64,000 nt of DNA from Devosia subaequoris (GTDB taxonomy: Bacteria > Pseudomonadota > Alphaproteobacteria > Rhizobiales > Devosiaceae), in contig NZ_JACIEW010000005.1 in the NCBI RefSeq assembly GCF_014197055.1, positions 1-64,000 on the forward strand, given 5' to 3'. The notes below the pieces were generated by a model. The model worked only from the letters and a program-made list of their open reading frames with translations. It searched no databases and was not told the origin of the DNA. The position numbers were made by a program, and so were the translations under genes. This document shows positions 55,913 through 64,000 of the stretch, one piece after another. Position 1 is the first letter of the stretch; each line of letters starts with the position of its first letter.

Positions 55913-57574
55913 TCAGGCCAAGTTGATATACCCAATTCCCTTCCGGGCAATTTCGTCCCGGCTTTCCTCGTAGCCGGCATCGGCATAGCGCATGACGCCG
56001 AGTGCTGTGTCATTGGTCAGTGCGTAGGACAGCCGTTCGGCACCCGCGTCCGTGCCGTCAGCCACAACGGTGACGCCGGCCGAGGTCATGTAGCCGGCAT
56101 AGCCGCCGCCGCCTGAATGGACCACGACCAGATCGGCCATCGAAGAGCAGAGCAGCATGGCATCGAGAATTGGCCAGTCGGCGATGGCGTCCGAGCCGTC
56201 CTGCATGCGTTCGGTCATGATGTTGGGATGCGCCATGGCCCCGGCGTCGAGATGATCGCGGCTGAAGGTGACCGGACCGGCAAGTTCGCCTTTTCGCACC
56301 ATATCGTTGACCGCCAGCGCCAGTTCGGTGCGCTCGCCATGGCCGAGCCAGGCAATGCGCGATGGCAGGCCCTCGAAGGGAACGTGGCGGCGGGCCAATT
56401 GAATCCAGTTGGTGACAATGCGGTTGTCCGGAAACATTTGCAGCAGGCGGTCATCGATCTTGCGGATGTCTTCGGGATCACCCGATTGCGCCATCCAACG
56501 AAAAGGGCCGATGGCACGAGCAAAGAGCGGGCGCAGATAAGCCTCGGTGAAAATGCGGATATCGAAGGCGTTCTCGACGCCGCCATCCTTGGCGTGGGTT
56601 CGGATCAGATTGCCGTTATCAAACACCTCGGCGCCGCGCGCCTGGAAAGCGAGCATGGCGGTAACGTGGTCGACAATGGAGGCTCGGCTGGCGGCCATCA
56701 GTGCGGCAGGATTGGACTTGCGCAACTCGCGCACCTGTTCGAGCGAATAGTCCTTTGGCACATAGCCATAAACCAGGTCATGGGCCGAGGTCTGGTCGGT
56801 GACAATGTCGGGCGTGATGCCGCGTCGCGCAATCTCGGGATAAATGTGGGCGGCATTGCCGACCAGGCCGATGGAGGTCGCGCGTTTGTCGCGGACCGCA
56901 TCTGCGATCATGTCGAGCGCCGCGTCGAGATCGGGTGCGATCTCCTCAAGGTAGCCGATCTCCTTGCGTTTTGACGCGCGCTCAGGGTCGATATCGACGC
57001 AAAGGATCGCCGCGCCGGCCATGCGACCGGCCAGCGGCTGCGCACCGCCCATGCCGCCCAGGCCCGCCGTCAGGATAAAGCGTCCCGCCAGATCGCCGTT
57101 GAAACGGTTTTCGGCAATGCGCATGAAGATTTCATAGGTGCCCTGGATGACACCCTGACTGCCAATATATTGCCAGGCGCCAGCGGTCAGCCCACCCCAG
57201 CAGATCAGGCCCTTGCGCTCCAATTCGTAGAACACCTCGGCCTTGGCCCACTGCCCGACGATGTTGCAATTGGCCATGATCACCAGTGGCGCCTTGGCGT
57301 GGGTTTTGACCAGGCCAATCGGCTTGCCGGACTGGATGATCAGCGTTTGGTCCTCGTCCATGGTCTTGAGCGCATGAACAATCGCGTCGTGGCTGGCCCA
57401 GTTTCGCGCCGCCTTGCCGAGCGCCGCATAGACAACGAGATTGTCCGGGTCTTCACCGACGCTGAGCACATTTTCCAGCAGCCGCAGCAGGGCTTCCTGG
57501 CGCCGGCCGCGGGCGCGGATTTCATTGCCGCCGGGAATGGGAAAGCGTGGGTGACGGGGATTGTGGGTCGGCAT
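55913..57574 (-). CDS. urocanase paralogue, probable thiourocanate hydratase
   Basis: 553 residues with full-length urocanase architecture: NAD-binding GLGGMGGAQPLAG, TDQTSAHDLVYGYVP, and DGTDAGAERLSYALTNDTALGVMRYADAGYE. Two active-site features differ from histidine-degrading HutU as I know it. The invariant Cys of the R-I-C-W motif is Ala408 (SRIAWLGHGER), and the usual HHGGGVGMG loop reads HSGGGGYAGYM. No other hut genes are near. It is last in an operon with hydantoin- and carbamoyl-cleaving enzymes, so hydration of thiourocanate (from ergothioneine) is the best-supported role. GGAGG lies six bases before ATG 57574. Confidence 0.82.
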   Translation of the reverse strand: MPTHNPRHPRFPIPGGNEIRARGRRQEALLRLLENVLSVGEDPDNLVVYAALGKAARNWASHDAIVHALKTMDEDQTLIIQSGKPIGLVKTHAKAPLVIMANCNIVGQWAKAEVFYELERKGLICWGGLTAGAWQYIGSQGVIQGTYEIFMRIAENRFNGDLAGRFILTAGLGGMGGAQPLAGRMAGAAILCVDIDPERASKRKEIGYLEEIAPDLDAALDMIADAVRDKRATSIGLVGNAAHIYPEIARRGITPDIVTDQTSAHDLVYGYVPKDYSLEQVRELRKSNPAALMAASRASIVDHVTAMLAFQARGAEVFDNGNLIRTHAKDGGVENAFDIRIFTEAYLRPLFARAIGPFRWMAQSGDPEDIRKIDDRLLQMFPDNRIVTNWIQLARRHVPFEGLPSRIAWLGHGERTELALAVNDMVRKGELAGPVTFSRDHLDAGAMAHPNIMTERMQDGSDAIADWPILDAMLLCSSMADLVVVHSGGGGYAGYMTSAGVTVVADGTDAGAERLSYALTNDTALGVMRYADAGYEESRDEIARKGIGYINLA

Positions 57575-57577
57575 CTC

Positions 57578-58666
57578 TCAGTCCTCCTTGGCCAAGGCAT
57601 AGCGGGCCAGCTCAATCCCCATGGTCCTTTCGACATGCGGATAGACCGAGGGATCGAGCACGCTCGAAGACAGTGGAATGATGGATTTGGGGACATGCAG
57701 CACAAAGATCTGCATGCCCTCCTCAAGCTGGCCGACGCTAAGGGGTTCGCCATCCCTCGAAAGTGTGGTGATGACATCGGGGAAGGTCGCCTGACGGGCG
57801 CCGTCGCGGTCTTCGACGGCCATGTATTCGTTCATGACGTGCAGCACAGCGCCATTTTCTAGCGTGACCGTCCCGACGTCGAAGGCCTCGCTGGTATAGG
57901 TCACTGCCTTTTTGGCGATTTTGCCGTCAACCAGGATCGCCCCGCCCGTGGTCTTGACGATGGCATCGATAATGGCGCTGCCGCCCTTGCCTTCGGCCGC
58001 GATGATCGCCTCGCCGAGCTTCAGCGCCAGCGAAATGCCACCCAGGGCTGCATGGTCGCGGACATAGCTGGCGCGCACCGGGTTGCGGCAGGAGGCAATA
58101 AACCCCCCGGACATGTCCGAGGCGGTGCGCAGGATCGGGGATACCTTGGCGGTGGAGCCGCGGGTGACCAGCTCGATATAGCGGTTTTCCTCGCGATTGC
58201 CGCCCACGGCGGTCTGGATCATCGGTTCGGGCGAGCCGGCCAAGCCGATCGAGCCCATGTCACCTGTGGGATGCGCGCGGATGTCGCCCACGGCGTCAAC
58301 CACCTTCAGCCCAAGCGCGGCCGATGGCAGCCAGCCATTGAGCGTCGAGGACTTGCCATTCTGACCAACCATCAAGCCTGCCAGCTTCTCGCCCAGCGCG
58401 TCCTGGAGCAATTGCACCGCCTTGATGTAATCAACGCCACGCATTTCCCAGGCCGTGGTTGAGGCCGGGGCGCCGATGGCGGCTGCCGTCGCGATCCAGT
58501 CACGATCGGCCAGTTCCTCTACCGAGACCAGTTCGGGCTTGCCGATCGAGACCGCCGCATAGCCCAGCATGCGCCCGTGATCGGCCCAGCCGCCGCCGCC
58601 CGCTGCATAGACCGAACCGCCCTTGACGGCCGCTTCCACGTCTTTTTCGGAAAGGATGCGTCCCAT
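57578..58666 (-). CDS. DUF917 family protein, possible desulfhydrase of the pathway
   Basis: 362 residues, the full length of DUF917 proteins, with the Gly-rich VYAAGGGGWADHGR N-terminus and GDMGSIGLAGSPEPMIQ. DUF917 genes often accompany hydantoinase systems, but the reaction is not well defined. In this operon the step not otherwise covered is conversion of the thio-oxo-imidazolidine propionate to hydantoin-5-propionate, so I propose it here by elimination. The start overlaps the upstream stop by one base (TAATG). Confidence 0.8.
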   Translation of the reverse strand: MGRILSEKDVEAAVKGGSVYAAGGGGWADHGRMLGYAAVSIGKPELVSVEELADRDWIATAAAIGAPASTTAWEMRGVDYIKAVQLLQDALGEKLAGLMVGQNGKSSTLNGWLPSAALGLKVVDAVGDIRAHPTGDMGSIGLAGSPEPMIQTAVGGNREENRYIELVTRGSTAKVSPILRTASDMSGGFIASCRNPVRASYVRDHAALGGISLALKLGEAIIAAEGKGGSAIIDAIVKTTGGAILVDGKIAKKAVTYTSEAFDVGTVTLENGAVLHVMNEYMAVEDRDGARQATFPDVITTLSRDGEPLSVGQLEEGMQIFVLHVPKSIIPLSSSVLDPSVYPHVERTMGIELARYALAKED

Positions 58667-59919
58667 TATGCTGTCTCCTGGAGGTCTTTATCGAGCCGCC
58701 GCACCGCGTCGAGCAGCACGGCCGCGCCAAGCGCAATGTCCTCTGCATTTGCGGATTCTTCGGGGGTATGGCTTCGGCCCTCGACACAAGGCACGAAGAT
58801 CATGGCGGCCTTGGTGATGCGCGCCATCCATGCCGTGTCATGTCCGGCTCCGGAGGCCATGCGGCGATGACGGGCGCCGGTGGCGTCGCAAGCAACGTCC
58901 AGCGAGGCGAGGACACCGGCGTCGCAGGGCGTCGGCATATTGTCCGAAAGGACGCGCGGCTCCGGCACGGTGACGCCGGTTTGGGCAGCGATGCCGGCCA
59001 CCCCGTCATGCAATTGGGCGAGGAAATGCTCCATGTCGGTGCGGCGTTCGGCCCGGGCATCGATCAGCATGGTAACCCGCGCTGGCACCACATTGGCGGC
59101 ATTGGGTTCCATGCGGAACTCGCCGACCGTGGCCGCGAAGTGGAATTCGCCCGCCGCCAGATCGGTCGCGAAACGCTCGACAGCCAGGGCGATCCAGGCG
59201 GCGGTTGAAAGCGCATCCTTGCGACTGCCCATGGGGGTGGTTCCGGCATGGTCGGCTCGGCCCTCGACCACAATCTCGATGCGGGTGATGCCCGCAATGG
59301 CGGTCACCACACCAATATCGAGATTTTCGCTTTCGAGCACCGGCCCCTGTTCGATATGGAGTTCAAGGAAGGCGGCAATGTCGTTGCGCGTTATCTGGGC
59401 CGCCGTGTTGCCGCCAATTTCGGCTATGGCATTGGCAAGGGTGACGCCCTCGCTCTGTCGGTCGAGCCAGGCTTCGGGGCGGGTTCCGGTGATGCCGCGG
59501 CTGCCGACACAGGAGACGCCGAAAATCGAGACTTCTTCGGCAAGGAAGTCGATGATTTCCAGATCATGGTCGAGTTCCATGCCGTTGTCCGCAAGGGCGC
59601 GGGCCACTTCGAGGGCGGCCGATACTCCGGCGATGCCGTCATAGCGGCCGCCCTCGGGCACGGTGTCGGAATGAGAGCCGAGCATGATCGTTCCGAGGCC
59701 CGGTTTCCGGCCCTTTCGCGAGCCGATGAGGTTTCCGGCAGCGTCGATGTGCGTGGTGAGGCCGGCGGCCTCAAAGCGTTGCGCCACCCATTCGCGGCCC
59801 TTGAGGAACATGGGCGTGAATGCGCGGCGGGTATAGGGACGGTCGGGCTCGGTGATATCGGCCAGAGCCGAGATGTCTTCATCGATCCGCGCGGCGCTGG
59901 TGGGCAGGTTGCGGGTCAT
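58666..59919 (-). CDS. M20-family N-carbamoyl-amino-acid hydrolase
   Basis: 417 residues of the hydantoinase/carbamoylase (allantoate amidohydrolase) type. The metal site is seen in LGSHSDTVPEGGRYDGIAGV and IDFLAEEVSIFGVSCVGS. The dimerisation lid region has RIEIVVEGRADHAGTTPMGSRKDAL. Expected reaction is N-carbamoyl-L-amino acid to amino acid, CO2 and ammonia, plausibly N-carbamoylglutamate to glutamate. It overlaps the hydantoinase-like gene by four bases (ATGA). Confidence 0.92.
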   Translation of the reverse strand: MTRNLPTSAARIDEDISALADITEPDRPYTRRAFTPMFLKGREWVAQRFEAAGLTTHIDAAGNLIGSRKGRKPGLGTIMLGSHSDTVPEGGRYDGIAGVSAALEVARALADNGMELDHDLEIIDFLAEEVSIFGVSCVGSRGITGTRPEAWLDRQSEGVTLANAIAEIGGNTAAQITRNDIAAFLELHIEQGPVLESENLDIGVVTAIAGITRIEIVVEGRADHAGTTPMGSRKDALSTAAWIALAVERFATDLAAGEFHFAATVGEFRMEPNAANVVPARVTMLIDARAERRTDMEHFLAQLHDGVAGIAAQTGVTVPEPRVLSDNMPTPCDAGVLASLDVACDATGARHRRMASGAGHDTAWMARITKAAMIFVPCVEGRSHTPEESANAEDIALGAAVLLDAVRRLDKDLQETA

Positions 59920-61277
59920 GCGCTCGCCTCGGGACGCACAAAGCGACCTGTGCCTGGCTCAGATAGAACTTCCTTACCATCAAAGACTTGTTGGCCACGC
60001 AGCCATGTTCCGGCGACAGACCAGGGCAGTTCGATGCCGTTATAGGGGCTCCAGCCGACGACGTTATGGCCGCTGCGGGCCGCGTCATAGACCTGCGGGC
60101 GATTGACGAGAACGGTGATGTCGGCGTCCTTGCCGGGCTTCAGCGCGCCCTTGATGTGGTCGAGGCGGAAGTGGCGGGCGGGGTTTTCGGCCATCAGTTT
60201 GGCGGCCCAGGTCAAGGGCACGCCATGGTCCAGAGCCCCCTTGATGAACAGCGGCACCATCACTTCGAGGCCGGGGACGCCCGAAGCATTGGCGAGCATG
60301 TCAGGATTGGTCTTGCGATCCTCGGACCAGCTCACGTGATCGGTCGAAATCAGGGTGACATTGCCGGCTGCTACATGCTGCCAGAGGTTTTCGACTTCGA
60401 CGCGCGGGCGGATCGGCGGGTTGATCTTGGCCTTGCCGCCGAGGCGGGCGACGTCATTTTCCTCGTCCAGCGTCAGATAGTGAATGCAGCACTCGATGGT
60501 GGCGGCATAACCCTGGTCGCGATAGGTGCGGGCGATCTCGTAGCCGCGCCCCAGCGAGCAATGCACGACATGGGCGGGACAGCCAGTTTGGGCGCCCGTT
60601 TCGTAAATCTGCAGCGATGCCAGGAGTTCGGTGAGCGGCGGACGGCTGAGGGCATGGGCGCGATAGTCGGTGATCCCTGCGGCCTTGACCTTGGCCATGG
60701 CGGCGCGGACCATTTCATCGTCCTCGTTGTGAACACCTGCTGTGAGGCCGGTCCTGGCGACGGCAGCAAAACACTCTTCAAGCAAAGCAGGGGGGATGCG
60801 CGGAAAGCGGATTGGGTCGGTGCCGAAGGTGGAGAATTTGAAGGCGGCAACGCCGGCTGCGGCCTGTTCGGCGATGCGCGTGGCACCCTCTTCGGGATTG
60901 ATGGTGCCGTAGAGAGCGAAATCGACAAGGGCCTGCGGGCCGGCATGCTCGACCTTGATACGGACCGCATCGGCCGAGCAGACCAGATTGCCCTCGTCAT
61001 AAGGCATGTCCACGATGGTTGTGACGCCGCCGGCCGCCGCCGAGCGGGTGGACCAGATGAAATCTTCCTGATTTTTCTGGCTGAGCGAATGGGTCTGGGC
61101 GTCGATGGCGCCGGGCAGGATCATGGCAGTGCCGAGATCGTGGCGGTCCAAAGCTTCGGGGCCAGCGCCCTCGCCGACCAAAGCGATCTTGCCATCGCGC
61201 ACGGCAACATGGCCGCGCTCGATGACGCGGTCCGGAAGGACGATGGTGCCGGTGAGGCTGAGGTCGAAGTCGGACAT
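59916..61277 (-). CDS. cyclic amidohydrolase (dihydropyrimidinase/hydantoinase-like)
   Basis: 453 residues of the amidohydrolase superfamily. ATLPG-like entry motif is PGAIDAQTHSL; the carboxylated-lysine strand is AAFKFST; the later metal histidines are in GVHNED and HVVHCSLG; the terminal Asp is in STDHVSW. The first metal histidine of the usual D-x-H-x-H is replaced by Gln (DAQTH), unusual for a hydantoinase. It would open the hydantoin-type ring before decarbamoylation. ATG 61277 has GGAAAG eight bases upstream. Confidence 0.88.
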   Translation of the reverse strand: MSDFDLSLTGTIVLPDRVIERGHVAVRDGKIALVGEGAGPEALDRHDLGTAMILPGAIDAQTHSLSQKNQEDFIWSTRSAAAGGVTTIVDMPYDEGNLVCSADAVRIKVEHAGPQALVDFALYGTINPEEGATRIAEQAAAGVAAFKFSTFGTDPIRFPRIPPALLEECFAAVARTGLTAGVHNEDDEMVRAAMAKVKAAGITDYRAHALSRPPLTELLASLQIYETGAQTGCPAHVVHCSLGRGYEIARTYRDQGYAATIECCIHYLTLDEENDVARLGGKAKINPPIRPRVEVENLWQHVAAGNVTLISTDHVSWSEDRKTNPDMLANASGVPGLEVMVPLFIKGALDHGVPLTWAAKLMAENPARHFRLDHIKGALKPGKDADITVLVNRPQVYDAARSGHNVVGWSPYNGIELPWSVAGTWLRGQQVFDGKEVLSEPGTGRFVRPEASA

Positions 61278-61295
61278 GGTCAAGTCTTTCCGTTC

Positions 61296-62048
61296 TCAGG
61301 CGTTGGCGCGCGCGCCCTGGCCGGTGCGGCGGGTCAGTGCCCGTTCGATGGCCGAGAGGCCGTCGTAAATCAGCACAGCGAGTGCGCCCACAATAAGCCC
61401 GCCTTGCAGCACGAAGGCGGTGTTGCTGGACAGAAGCCCGGCGATGATGACTTCACCGAGCGTGCGCGCCGCAACGGTGGAGCCGATGGTGGCGGTGGCC
61501 AGGGAAATTACCGTTGAGAGGCGCACTCCGGCGAGGATGATCGGCAGGGCCAAGGGTAGCTCAACGCGGACAAGACGTTGCCTGCCGGTCATGCCCATGC
61601 CGCGTGCCGCTTCGGTCACCGTGGGCGGAAGCCCGGTGAGGCCGGTCAGGGTGTTTTCAAAGATTGGCAGGAGGCCATAGAGAAACAGGGCCACCAGCGT
61701 CGGTGCCGTGCCAAAGCCGAGCATGGGCACGGCAAGGGCCAGCACCGCAACAGGCGGAAAGGTCTGGCCGACATTGGCAAGGCTCCGCGACAGCGGCAGG
61801 AATTCGGCGCCAAAGGGACGCGTCACCAGGATAGCGAGGCCGACCGCGACGGTGGTGGCCAGAGCTGTGGCAACCGCCACGATCAACAGGTGGTTGAGTG
61901 TAAGGTCGAGCAGGCTGCCCTGGTTGTAGATGATCGGCTGATTGTTCTTGGTCAGGGGTTCGAAGAGAAAGGCGAAGCTTTCCGGGCTGACCAGAAATGC
62001 CACCAGCAGGGCCAGGACGAGGAGGCGGATGACAAGGCCAATGCTCAT
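61296..62048 (-). CDS. quaternary-amine ABC transporter permease (YehW/OpuCB-like)
   Basis: 250 residues with about six membrane helices and the permease coupling motif EAARGMGMTGRQRLVRVELPLALP, which is diagnostic of the glycine-betaine/carnitine/choline (OpuC, Yeh/Osm) branch. It overlaps the ATPase stop by four bases (ATGA). Gene size and order match E. coli YehW. Confidence 0.92.
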   Translation of the reverse strand: MSIGLVIRLLVLALLVAFLVSPESFAFLFEPLTKNNQPIIYNQGSLLDLTLNHLLIVAVATALATTVAVGLAILVTRPFGAEFLPLSRSLANVGQTFPPVAVLALAVPMLGFGTAPTLVALFLYGLLPIFENTLTGLTGLPPTVTEAARGMGMTGRQRLVRVELPLALPIILAGVRLSTVISLATATIGSTVAARTLGEVIIAGLLSSNTAFVLQGGLIVGALAVLIYDGLSAIERALTRRTGQGARANA

Positions 62049-62977
62049 GACGGCCTCACAGCGCACCTGGCCAGATCGGCGCGGTTGATACGGCCGACCA
62101 GTGTGCCATTGTCCATGACAGGCAAGGCTTCGCGCCCCGACCAGAGGCATTCGGCATAGGCCTCGCGCAGGCTGGCAGTGGCGGCAATCGGTTGGCCCGC
62201 AGCTTCGCCGGGTTCGACCAAAGAGCTCACCTTTGCCAGCGAGAGCAGCCGGAAGGGACGGTCGCCGCCGATGAGCTCAGCGACGAAATCAGTGGCCGGA
62301 TTGGCGATGATCTCCTCGGGGGTCGCATATTGCAGCAATTCGCCGCCGTCCATGACAGCGATGCGGCTGCCCAGGTGAATGGCCTCTTCCATGTCATGGG
62401 TGACCAGCACCACCGTAGTGTTGAACCGTCTCTGGATGGCAAGCAGGTCGTCCTGGGCCTTGGCACGGATGACCGGGTCGAGGGCGCCAAAGGGTTCGTC
62501 CATCAGGAGGATATTGGGTTCGGCCGCCAATGCGCGCGCCACGCCGACGCGCTGCTGTTGACCGCCCGAGAGTTCATTGGGCATGCGGTCACGAAATTGA
62601 GCCGGGTCGAGCTGGAACAGCGAAAGCAGTTCGTCGACCCGATTGGCGATGCGGGCCTTGTCCCAACCAAGCAGATGCGGGACCGTGCCGATATTCTGCC
62701 CCACGGTGCGGTGGGGAAACAGACCGTGGCCCTGGATGGCGTAACCAATGCGGCGGCGCAGTTCATAGGCGGGAACCTCGCGCGTATCCTGTCCGTCAAT
62801 CAGCACCTTGCCAGAGGTCGGCTCGACCAGCCGGTTGACCATGCGCATCAGCGTGGTCTTGCCCGAACCGGAGGTGCCCACAATGGCGCAGAGTTCACCC
62901 GCGCCGATGGTCAGGGAGACCCTGTCGACCACCGTCGTCTGGCCATAGACCTTGGTCAGCTCCTGGATTTCGATCAT
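62045..62977 (-). CDS. quaternary-amine ABC transporter ATP-binding protein
   Basis: 310 residues. It has Walker A VGTSGSGKTTLMRMVN, the Q-loop IQGHGLFPHRTV, the signature LSGGQQQRVGVARAL, Walker B ILLMDEPFGALD and the switch His LVTHDMEEA. The final ~60 residues form a CBS-like segment (ALPVMDNGTLVGRINRADL), as in OpuCA-type ATPases that sense ionic strength. It overlaps both neighbours by four bases. Confidence 0.95.
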   Translation of the reverse strand: MIEIQELTKVYGQTTVVDRVSLTIGAGELCAIVGTSGSGKTTLMRMVNRLVEPTSGKVLIDGQDTREVPAYELRRRIGYAIQGHGLFPHRTVGQNIGTVPHLLGWDKARIANRVDELLSLFQLDPAQFRDRMPNELSGGQQQRVGVARALAAEPNILLMDEPFGALDPVIRAKAQDDLLAIQRRFNTTVVLVTHDMEEAIHLGSRIAVMDGGELLQYATPEEIIANPATDFVAELIGGDRPFRLLSLAKVSSLVEPGEAAGQPIAATASLREAYAECLWSGREALPVMDNGTLVGRINRADLARCAVRPS

Positions 62978-64000
62978 TGGGCACGCTCCCTGGTGCTGAC
63001 CATTTCGACAAAGGCATCGAGGACTACGGCGGCGGCAAAGGCCAGGGCGACGGTGGGGACGGCGCCGAGCAGGACCAAATCCATGGCGGTCTGGCCAATG
63101 CCCTGGAACACGAAGACGCCAAAGCCGCCGCCGCCGATCAGCGCGGCAATGGTGGCAAGACCGATATTCTGGACCAGCACGATGCGAATGCCGGTGAGGA
63201 TCACGGGAAAGGCCAGCGGCAGTTCCACTGAAAACAGGCGCTGCCGATTGGTCATGCCCATGCCCCTTGCCGCGTCATTGGCGACCTCGGGCACATTGAC
63301 CAGGCCCACCACGGTGTTGGAAACGATGGGCAGCAGCGAATAGGCAAAGAGCGCCACCATCGCCGGGGCGATGCCGATGCCCGAGATGCCGATGGCCGAT
63401 GCGCCCGGCACATTGGCCGCGACCCAGGCCAAAGGAGCAATGAGTAGCCCGAACAGCGCGATGGAGGGGATGGTCTGGACGATATTGAGGGTATTGAGCA
63501 CAGCAGCGCGCAGCGGTTTGACGCGATAGAGCAGGATGCCCAGCGGCACACCGGCAAGGATGGCGATGGCGACCGACCCGAAGGCCAGAAGCAGATGGGT
63601 GCGGGCCTCGGCCCAGAAAGCCGGCGCGCGATTGGCGAACTCCTTGAGGATCGACAGATCGTTCCAAGCGCCACTCCAGAGCAGCGCTGCCATCGCCATC
63701 CCGACCACGGCGAGGATACCGATGCGCTGCCATGGACCGAATTTAAGCCGCGTGAGGGCGTCGGTGACCAGCAGTGCGAAGGCAAAGGTCAATAGCCAGA
63801 ACCCGGCGCCAGGTGACACCCGGGCAAAGGTGTTGTCAGGGGGCGTCAGAAACGTCGCCGACTGGCCGATCAGGAAGAAGAGCGTGGCCAGCACCAGGAA
63901 GCCGACACCGAGCTTGGCGAGAGGATTGACGCGCAGCAGCATGGTCCCGACGCCGATCAGCAGGACAAGACCGAGCAGGACCACCGAGGGAGAGCCGAGG
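62974..64000 (-). CDS. quaternary-amine ABC transporter permease (YehY-like), 5' end beyond the window
   Basis: At least 336 residues from an internal GTG at 63984, and the frame stays open to the window edge (upstream codons read LGSPS), so the gene is probably truncated here. Several N-terminal helices precede a six-helix permease core with DAARGMGMTNRQRLFSVELPLAFP. This is the two-part layout of YehY, which is ~385 residues. The binding-protein gene would be expected just upstream, outside the window. Confidence 0.9.
   Translation of the reverse strand, partial: LGSPSVVLLGLVLLIGVGTMLLRVNPLAKLGVGFLVLATLFFLIGQSATFLTPPDNTFARVSPGAGFWLLTFAFALLVTDALTRLKFGPWQRIGILAVVGMAMAALLWSGAWNDLSILKEFANRAPAFWAEARTHLLLAFGSVAIAILAGVPLGILLYRVKPLRAAVLNTLNIVQTIPSIALFGLLIAPLAWVAANVPGASAIGISGIGIAPAMVALFAYSLLPIVSNTVVGLVNVPEVANDAARGMGMTNRQRLFSVELPLAFPVILTGIRIVLVQNIGLATIAALIGGGGFGVFVFQGIGQTAMDLVLLGAVPTVALAFAAAVVLDAFVEMVSTRERAQ

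Follow-up and report, generated by a model that had tools for sequence, protein, structure and literature searches.

Bacteria degrade ergothioneine by loss of trimethylamine to give thiourocanate, hydration of this product, desulfuration to hydantoin-5-propionate, ring opening to N-carbamoylglutamate and release of glutamate. Beliaeva et al. reportedly described this five-step pathway in 2021, and Muramatsu et al. are said to have reported an ergothionase of Burkholderia sp. HME13 in 2013. Import of ergothioneine is associated with EgtU/EgtUV of pneumococcus and Helicobacter. YehZYXW (OsmU) systems are annotated as osmoprotectant or glycine betaine transporters, and we know of no settled physiological substrate for them. 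Here, we describe a nine-gene unit of the soil bacterium Devosia subaequoris in which genes for the five enzyme types of the ergothioneine (Ert) pathway are joined to a YehZYXW-type ATP-binding cassette (ABC) importer and a divergent LysR gene. The unit crosses the end of the stretch analyzed, the first 64,000 bases of the 359,888-base contig NZ_JACIEW010000005.1 (hereafter the window; assembly GCF_014197055.1, estimated genome completeness 99.98%), and the genes beyond its edge were read from the continuation of the same contig.

The nine-gene unit and its predicted pathway

The nine genes lie on the minus strand between positions 55913 and 66933, as read from open frames across the window edge (Table 1). 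From the window alone, the sequence-only reading had described seven tightly packed minus-strand genes as an ergothioneine-degradation operon, had predicted a C-N lyase past position 64000 and had proposed that a binding protein be sought there. All seven genes were confirmed as open frames, and an aromatic-lyase-family gene and a gene for a betaine-type binding protein were found beyond the edge. The degradation reading itself gained support from four enzymes that score above NCBI curated equivalog cut-offs and from the ergothionase-like lyase. The gaps from the lyase to the hydratase gene are 55, 155, -4, -4, 12, -4, -1 and 3 bases, the last six falling among the seven genes first described.

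The nine genes would form one transcription unit, and its position suggests that the divergent LysR gene probably controls it. The YehZYXW-type importer would take up ergothioneine, a role suggested by its genomic context. The lyase, which has lost the methylidene-imidazolone (MIO) triad, would cleave ergothioneine to trimethylamine and thiourocanate, and thiourocanate hydratase would convert the latter to thiohydantoin propionate. The thiohydantoin desulfurase would then swap sulfur for oxygen, releasing sulfide and yielding hydantoin-5-propionate, the ring of which would be opened by ErtD to give N-carbamoylglutamate. ErtE would finally produce glutamate, CO2 and ammonia. We infer these reactions from characterized relatives. 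With all five enzyme types of the Ert pathway predicted from the sequence, the catabolic half represents a new instance of an already known route. We are strongly confident that it breaks down ergothioneine, and we consider it very likely that the operon as a whole imports ergothioneine and degrades it to glutamate as a nutrient.

Table 1. Genes of the unit and its upstream neighbors, with the evidence for each assignment.
Feature	Position	Strand	Evidence
Ergothionase-like lyase	65287-66933, past edge	-	PF00221, 272 bits; best PDB match ergothionase, 186 bits
YehZ/OsmF-type binding protein	64320-65231, past edge	-	PF04069; OsmF model 495 bits, cut-off 400; structure matches
YehY-type ABC permease, 396 amino acids	62974-64164; 62974-64000 in window, cut by edge	-	PF00528; open frame across edge
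YehX-type ABC ATPase	62045-62977	-	PF00005; best NCBIfam match ProV (betaine/proline/choline), 295.5 bits, below cut-off 326.6
YehW-type ABC permease	61296-62048	-	PF00528; junction sequence
ErtD, hydantoin-5-propionate amidohydrolase	59916-61283	-	NF058538, 780 bits, cut-off 600
ErtE, N-carbamyl-L-glutamate amidohydrolase	58666-59919	-	NF058540, 594 bits, cut-off 520
Thiohydantoin desulfurase (DUF917 / S-Me-THD fold)	57578-58666	-	NF058529, 597 bits, cut-off 440
Thiourocanate hydratase	55913-57574	-	NF058530, 1036 bits, cut-off 930; best PDB match 7ned
Divergent LysR gene	67057-68148, past edge	+	PF00126 and PF03466
Flavin adenine dinucleotide (FAD) disulfide reductase, membership doubtful	68213-69604, past edge	+	NF004992, 744 bits, cut-off 629

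The start of the YehW-type permease gene was placed at its ATGA overlap with the ATPase gene (the longest open frame begins at 62150), and the ErtD gene starts at either TTG 61283 or ATG 61277. An ilvD-like gene is next downstream, 354 bases beyond the last gene of the operon.

Recurrence of the unit and the ligand of its importer

The nine-gene order (A-s-y-x-w-D-E-C-B, from lyase to hydratase) was found in Devosia, Martelella, Salinarimonas and the genomes UR115 and G262. Because the same order is seen in other families of the class, the arrangement is not due to chance. In a class sample of 385 genomes the desulfurase was above its cut-off in five, the window's genome among them. Two of the others, UR115 (G040 in this sample) and G262, hold the full nine-gene order together with a LysR gene. 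The stretch fetched from genome G015 contains the lyase, desulfurase and hydratase only; in that from G086, the lyase next to the desulfurase and hydratase genes is a distant one and has a true MIO triad.

From 400 relatives identified by a genome scan, the best 80 were kept (Devosia, Pelagibacterium, Martelella, Salinarimonas, rhizobia and others). The closest named relatives belong to Devosia, and the desulfurase of Devosia marina is 95% identical to the aligned query. YehZYXW stands between the lyase and ErtD, or adjoins ErtE or the desulfurase where ErtD was not found, in 15 of these best 80 loci, with one more partial case at a contig end; most rhizobial loci consist of the catabolic core without YehZYXW. 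Among 121 genomes of the window's own family, the desulfurase occurs in 43 and the binding protein in 77. The two genes lie within ∼8 kb of each other in 35 of the 43, on different contigs in four and far apart in one, and in three the binding protein was not found at E 1e-90. The lyase adjoins the binding protein in every linked genome that was read (33 of the 35). Thirty-seven genomes of the family have the binding protein without the desulfurase; 22 of them were read (23 stretches) and 20 had no core gene. The remaining two are G473, where the lyase adjoins the binding protein at the end of a contig, and G386, with a single weak ErtD-like match (27% identity).

In a tree of the core enzymes hydratase and desulfurase (quick method with midpoint rooting and some long branches), the YehZYXW-bearing lineages were scattered and several branched early; six changes were needed, at least five of them forced. 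The tree is compatible with a single ancient nine-gene unit and several later losses, which it does not prove. Identities of the binding protein and of the core enzymes correlated across 16 operon-linked loci (Mantel r 0.91) and over ten non-independent between-lineage averages (r = 0.94). Monophyly of the operon-linked binding proteins was not found, with at least three changes forced in a first tree and at least nine changes of linkage in a larger one (quick method).

The sequence-only reading had likened the importer to known ergothioneine importers; it is betaine-type as proposed, but its type is YehZYXW/OsmF and not EgtU. The window binding protein passes the OsmF model, permease, ATPase and permease genes adjoin its gene, and the fold match agrees. 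It shares 56% identity with E. coli YehZ and 76-77% with homologues from Brucella and Agrobacterium, and structures are available for these homologues (E. coli 4wep; Brucella 5teu and 5uve; Agrobacterium 4nd9 and 4ne4). EgtU is a fusion of permease and binding protein, whereas in the Devosia importer the binding protein is separate and there are two permeases. Seven of 15 compared EgtU sites are kept (K242, I243, T275, N339, E375, Y419 and Y443); the differences include G244 to Asp, F293 to Tyr, Y337 to Ala, Y341 to Trp, R379 to Ser and D381 to Ala. E. coli YehZ (row L171 of the alignment) carries the equivalents of T274, R379 and D381.

Several observations weigh against an operon that imports and degrades ergothioneine. 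A paper on EgtU (PMC9732360) stresses G244 and an F293/Y337 switch as specificity determinants, and the window pocket has neither, in addition to its loss of R379. Close homologues of the transporter also occur alone, without catabolic genes, and 66 of 87 core-tree rows have no YehZYXW in the stretch covered, with four more left unassigned. A LysR homologue stands beside only 13 of 30 further clusters (28 from the own family plus G040 and G262). On the enzymatic side, no lyase model reaches its cut-off (hutH 195 bits, cut-off 539). No clear trimethylamine oxidase of the flavin-containing monooxygenase type was found, the one match having 33 bits over 72 of 532 positions (Pfam cut-off 22).

Since close homologues of the transporter stand alone, a generic betaine importer is possible. 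YehZYXW would then import glycine betaine, proline betaine or choline for osmoprotection, or several betaines, and the catabolic reading would stand. The family annotation as glycine betaine OsmF, the many stand-alone copies (for example close to genes for a catalase or a cation:proton antiporter) and the loss of EgtU specificity residues favor this view, as does the uniformity of the pocket. Of the 15 sites matched to the EgtU pocket in 87 labelled rows, nine are invariant and three differ in one stand-alone row each, so that 12 are alike in linked and stand-alone copies with at most one deviating row; site 31 differs in four stand-alone rows, and sites 61 and 171 are variable. This near-identity argues that linked and stand-alone proteins would bind much the same ligand, whichever ligand that is. 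The residues present would be compatible with ergothioneine bound in a different mode as well as with a broad betaine pocket. Against general betaine import, the Devosia copy is embedded in an ergothioneine operon, its genes sitting between the lyase and ErtD with four-base overlaps within the transporter, and linkage is found in most desulfurase genomes of the family (35 of 43). The identity of the binding protein also declines in step with that of the core enzymes, and the E. coli homologue is described in a paper title as low-affinity and non-osmoregulatory. We regard general betaine import as rather unlikely. Ergothioneine is a strong candidate ligand of YehZYXW because the gene order recurs across lineages and because the binding protein has diverged in parallel with the core enzymes, and from this context its import appears probable.

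Several related clusters have a different composition. Loci L141 and L143 (also L117 and L255) hold ErtD, ErtE, desulfurase and hydratase genes without an adjacent lyase of the window's kind. In clusters of this type from Paracoccus aminophilus and Thalassospira, a tripartite ATP-independent periplasmic (TRAP) transporter is encoded downstream, and in Thalassospira also a UbiD-family decarboxylase. This is as expected if a later intermediate is imported, possibly with entry at thiourocanate; there are too few such cases for a test. A Microvirga ossetica plasmid (L142) carries desulfurase, ErtD-like and ErtE-like genes without a hydratase gene, followed by genes for a flavin reductase, a racemase and an FAD oxidoreductase, with an amino-acid ABC importer adjoining. 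It is a different pathway variant. Downstream of loci without YehZYXW (L046, L047, L053 and similar), translations read without models indicated peptide-type ABC genes in Devosia ureilytica, TRAP-like genes in Pelagibacterium and polyamine-type ABC genes in rhizobia.

Substrate of the catabolic enzymes

S-methyl members exist in both the hydratase and the desulfurase family (models NF058531 and NF058532; solved structures 8q9u/8q9v), and Pfam names DUF917 after the S-methyl reaction. The operon could accordingly degrade S-methyl-ergothioneine, with an S-methylated urocanate being hydrated and the DUF917 protein releasing methanethiol. The window proteins pass the thiourocanate-type models (Table 1) and fail both existing S-methyl counterparts, the hydratase with 739 bits (cut-off 880) and the desulfurase with 282 bits (cut-off 450). 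When PDB entries were ranked by sequence, the hydratase matched 7ned with 805 bits, the next entry with 607 bits and 8q9u/8q9v with 574 bits; by their titles, 7ned is a thiourocanate hydratase from Paenibacillus and 8q9u/8q9v are S-methylthiourocanate hydratase. The 7ned protein, from Paenibacillus sp. Soil724D2 and thus from a different phylum than Devosia, is 62% identical to the window hydratase over 467 aligned residues. A second urocanase of genome G086 showed the opposite pattern, passing the S-methyl model (891 bits, cut-off 880) and failing the thiourocanate model (696 bits, cut-off 930), so the two NCBI models discriminate. On the two model pairs, with this protein as the positive control, the S-methyl substrate was rejected, and we judge it very improbable. 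Genome G086 (L042, G086:C6:262001-282000) contains both a thiourocanate-type and an S-methyl-thiourocanate-type set.

For ergothioneine as the substrate, the two amidohydrolases agree with the later steps. The hydantoinase-like protein passes the ErtD model in Table 1 and fails a second ErtD model, NF058539 (381 bits, cut-off 650). The carbamoylase-like protein passes the ErtE model and scores higher on that for a generic Zn-dependent hydrolase (NF009531, 653 bits, cut-off 486). No match to EgtD was found in the D. subaequoris genome.

As no lyase model reaches its cut-off, the identity of the lyase rests on comparison with the PDB, in which ergothionase is the best match and histidine ammonia-lyase (HAL) follows with 130 bits. 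No ergothionase model is among the eight NCBIfam matches. The closest solved relative, the ergothionase 6s7j/6s7q from Treponema denticola, is distant at 186 bits. In HAL numbering, and read through two PDB alignments, the window lyase keeps Y53, H83, R283 and E414. It shares with ergothionase the loss of the MIO Ala-Ser-Gly triad, Ser in place of N195 and Leu in place of Y280; its triad site reads Cys-Ala-gap, and the F329 site is Ser in the window lyase and Phe in ergothionase. PMC13405746 describes ergothionase as lacking MIO. The motif was compared in 83 lyases, 82 from 90 related loci (eight loci had no lyase) and the window's own. The triad site was Cys-Ala-Asp in 75, Cys-Gly-Asp in one, Glu-Ala-Asp in two, a true MIO triad in one and unreadable in four, two of which are one genome, UR115, entered twice (L035 and L113). 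Ala-Ser-Gly was thus absent from 78 of the 79 readable motifs. The single true MIO triad belongs to the lyase at L034:9083-10687, beside the desulfurase and hydratase of G086.

A bacterial pathway for ergothioneine sulfonate has been published and is cited for Agrobacterium radiobacter in PMC13405746. Such a sulfonate or another oxidized form could be the substrate here, with the adjacent FAD disulfide reductase handling oxidized ergothioneine first. The hydratase and desulfurase, however, fit the thiourocanate and thiohydantoin models, and the reductase stands beside only two of the 30 further clusters; an oxidized substrate is likewise very improbable.

Homology links the lyase to HutH and the urocanase-like protein to HutU. 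The two proteins are the sole PF00221 and PF01175 matches in the genome, and the urocanase-like protein also passes the broader hutU model (684 bits, cut-off 375), which is uninformative because all seven urocanase-family proteins tested pass it. The models and the PDB match speak against a grouping of the urocanase with true HutU, which the sequence-only reading had named as a refutation of its proposal. A histidine or hercynine utilization (hut-type) operon with paralogous enzymes is hardly credible, since the lyase has lost the MIO triad and fails hutH, the urocanase best fits thiourocanate hydratase with 7ned as its best match, and the desulfurase and hydantoinase have no known role in the hut route; true HutH/HutU identity was rejected.

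Regulator, reductase and wider meaning

The LysR regulators of relatives contained two LysR-type helix-turn-helix domains in all five cases tested (L046, L047, L053, L141 and L143). In D. subaequoris (67000-67258) the first of these domains lies in a different reading frame from the remainder, and the intact frame therefore begins at 67057; the break is either a real frameshift or a sequencing fault. A palindrome, GAACA-N5-TGTTC, occurs at ∼66940-66960, directly upstream of the lyase gene, and was present in four of four regions (that of D. subaequoris and L043, L044 and L045 from very close Devosia). It is a possible operator.

The FAD disulfide reductase was tried and rejected as a conserved part of the unit. 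It lies at the edge of three of the best 80 loci. Thirteen of the 14 measured YehZ-bearing loci among these had less than 2 kb of sequence upstream of the lyase, so its absence could not be judged there and the 30 further clusters were read upstream of the lyase; the two positives among them are probably the same genomes as two of the three. In the class sample, 13 genomes have a close copy of the reductase and 10 the binding protein, and the window's genome is the only overlap (five reductase candidates scored per genome). The reductase adjoins the stand-alone transporter in four of 21 stand-alone loci, all from Sinorhizobium/Ensifer (L139, L158, L166 and L167). An FAD disulfide reductase also adjoins the EgtU-like importer on a Ligilactobacillus salivarius plasmid (L174:3889-5220; 27% identity to the window's protein). 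Such reductases are thus found beside three separate betaine-type transporters, namely that of the window unit, the stand-alone YehZYXW of Sinorhizobium/Ensifer and the EgtU-like importer of L. salivarius. A role as ergothioneine-disulfide reductase would fit and is a lead only, the superfamily being common and the link rare among related clusters.

In open-licence full texts, with subscription papers outside the scope, we recognized no report linking YehZ, OsmF or YehZYXW to ergothioneine. None of these papers mentions both ergothioneine and Devosia, or ergothioneine with a term starting in 'yehz'; where ergothioneine occurs together with a term starting in 'osmu' or 'osmf', the papers are unrelated by title. 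The earlier suggestion that the unit may be undescribed in this lineage holds insofar as no description was recognized in those texts; the pathway itself is known, and its enzymes already have curated NCBI models. The apparent novelty lies in the combination of this known core, within one unit, with an importer from a family not expected there.

We tentatively extend this to the transporter family, a view we put forward as speculative: YehZYXW/OsmF, conserved across Devosia, rhizobia, Brucella and E. coli, may at heart be an ergothioneine importer. Linked copies would feed catabolism, stand-alone copies with their near-identical pocket would scavenge the antioxidant, and the Sinorhizobium reductase could recycle oxidized ergothioneine. 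For the catabolic half, the known pathway is, as predicted from sequence, complete in Devosia and relatives. For the importer, the operon points to a concrete and readily testable candidate ligand of YehZYXW, several structures of which have been solved. If ergothioneine is this ligand, its scavenging would extend to many proteobacteria and the current labelling of OsmF as 'glycine betaine' would mislead.

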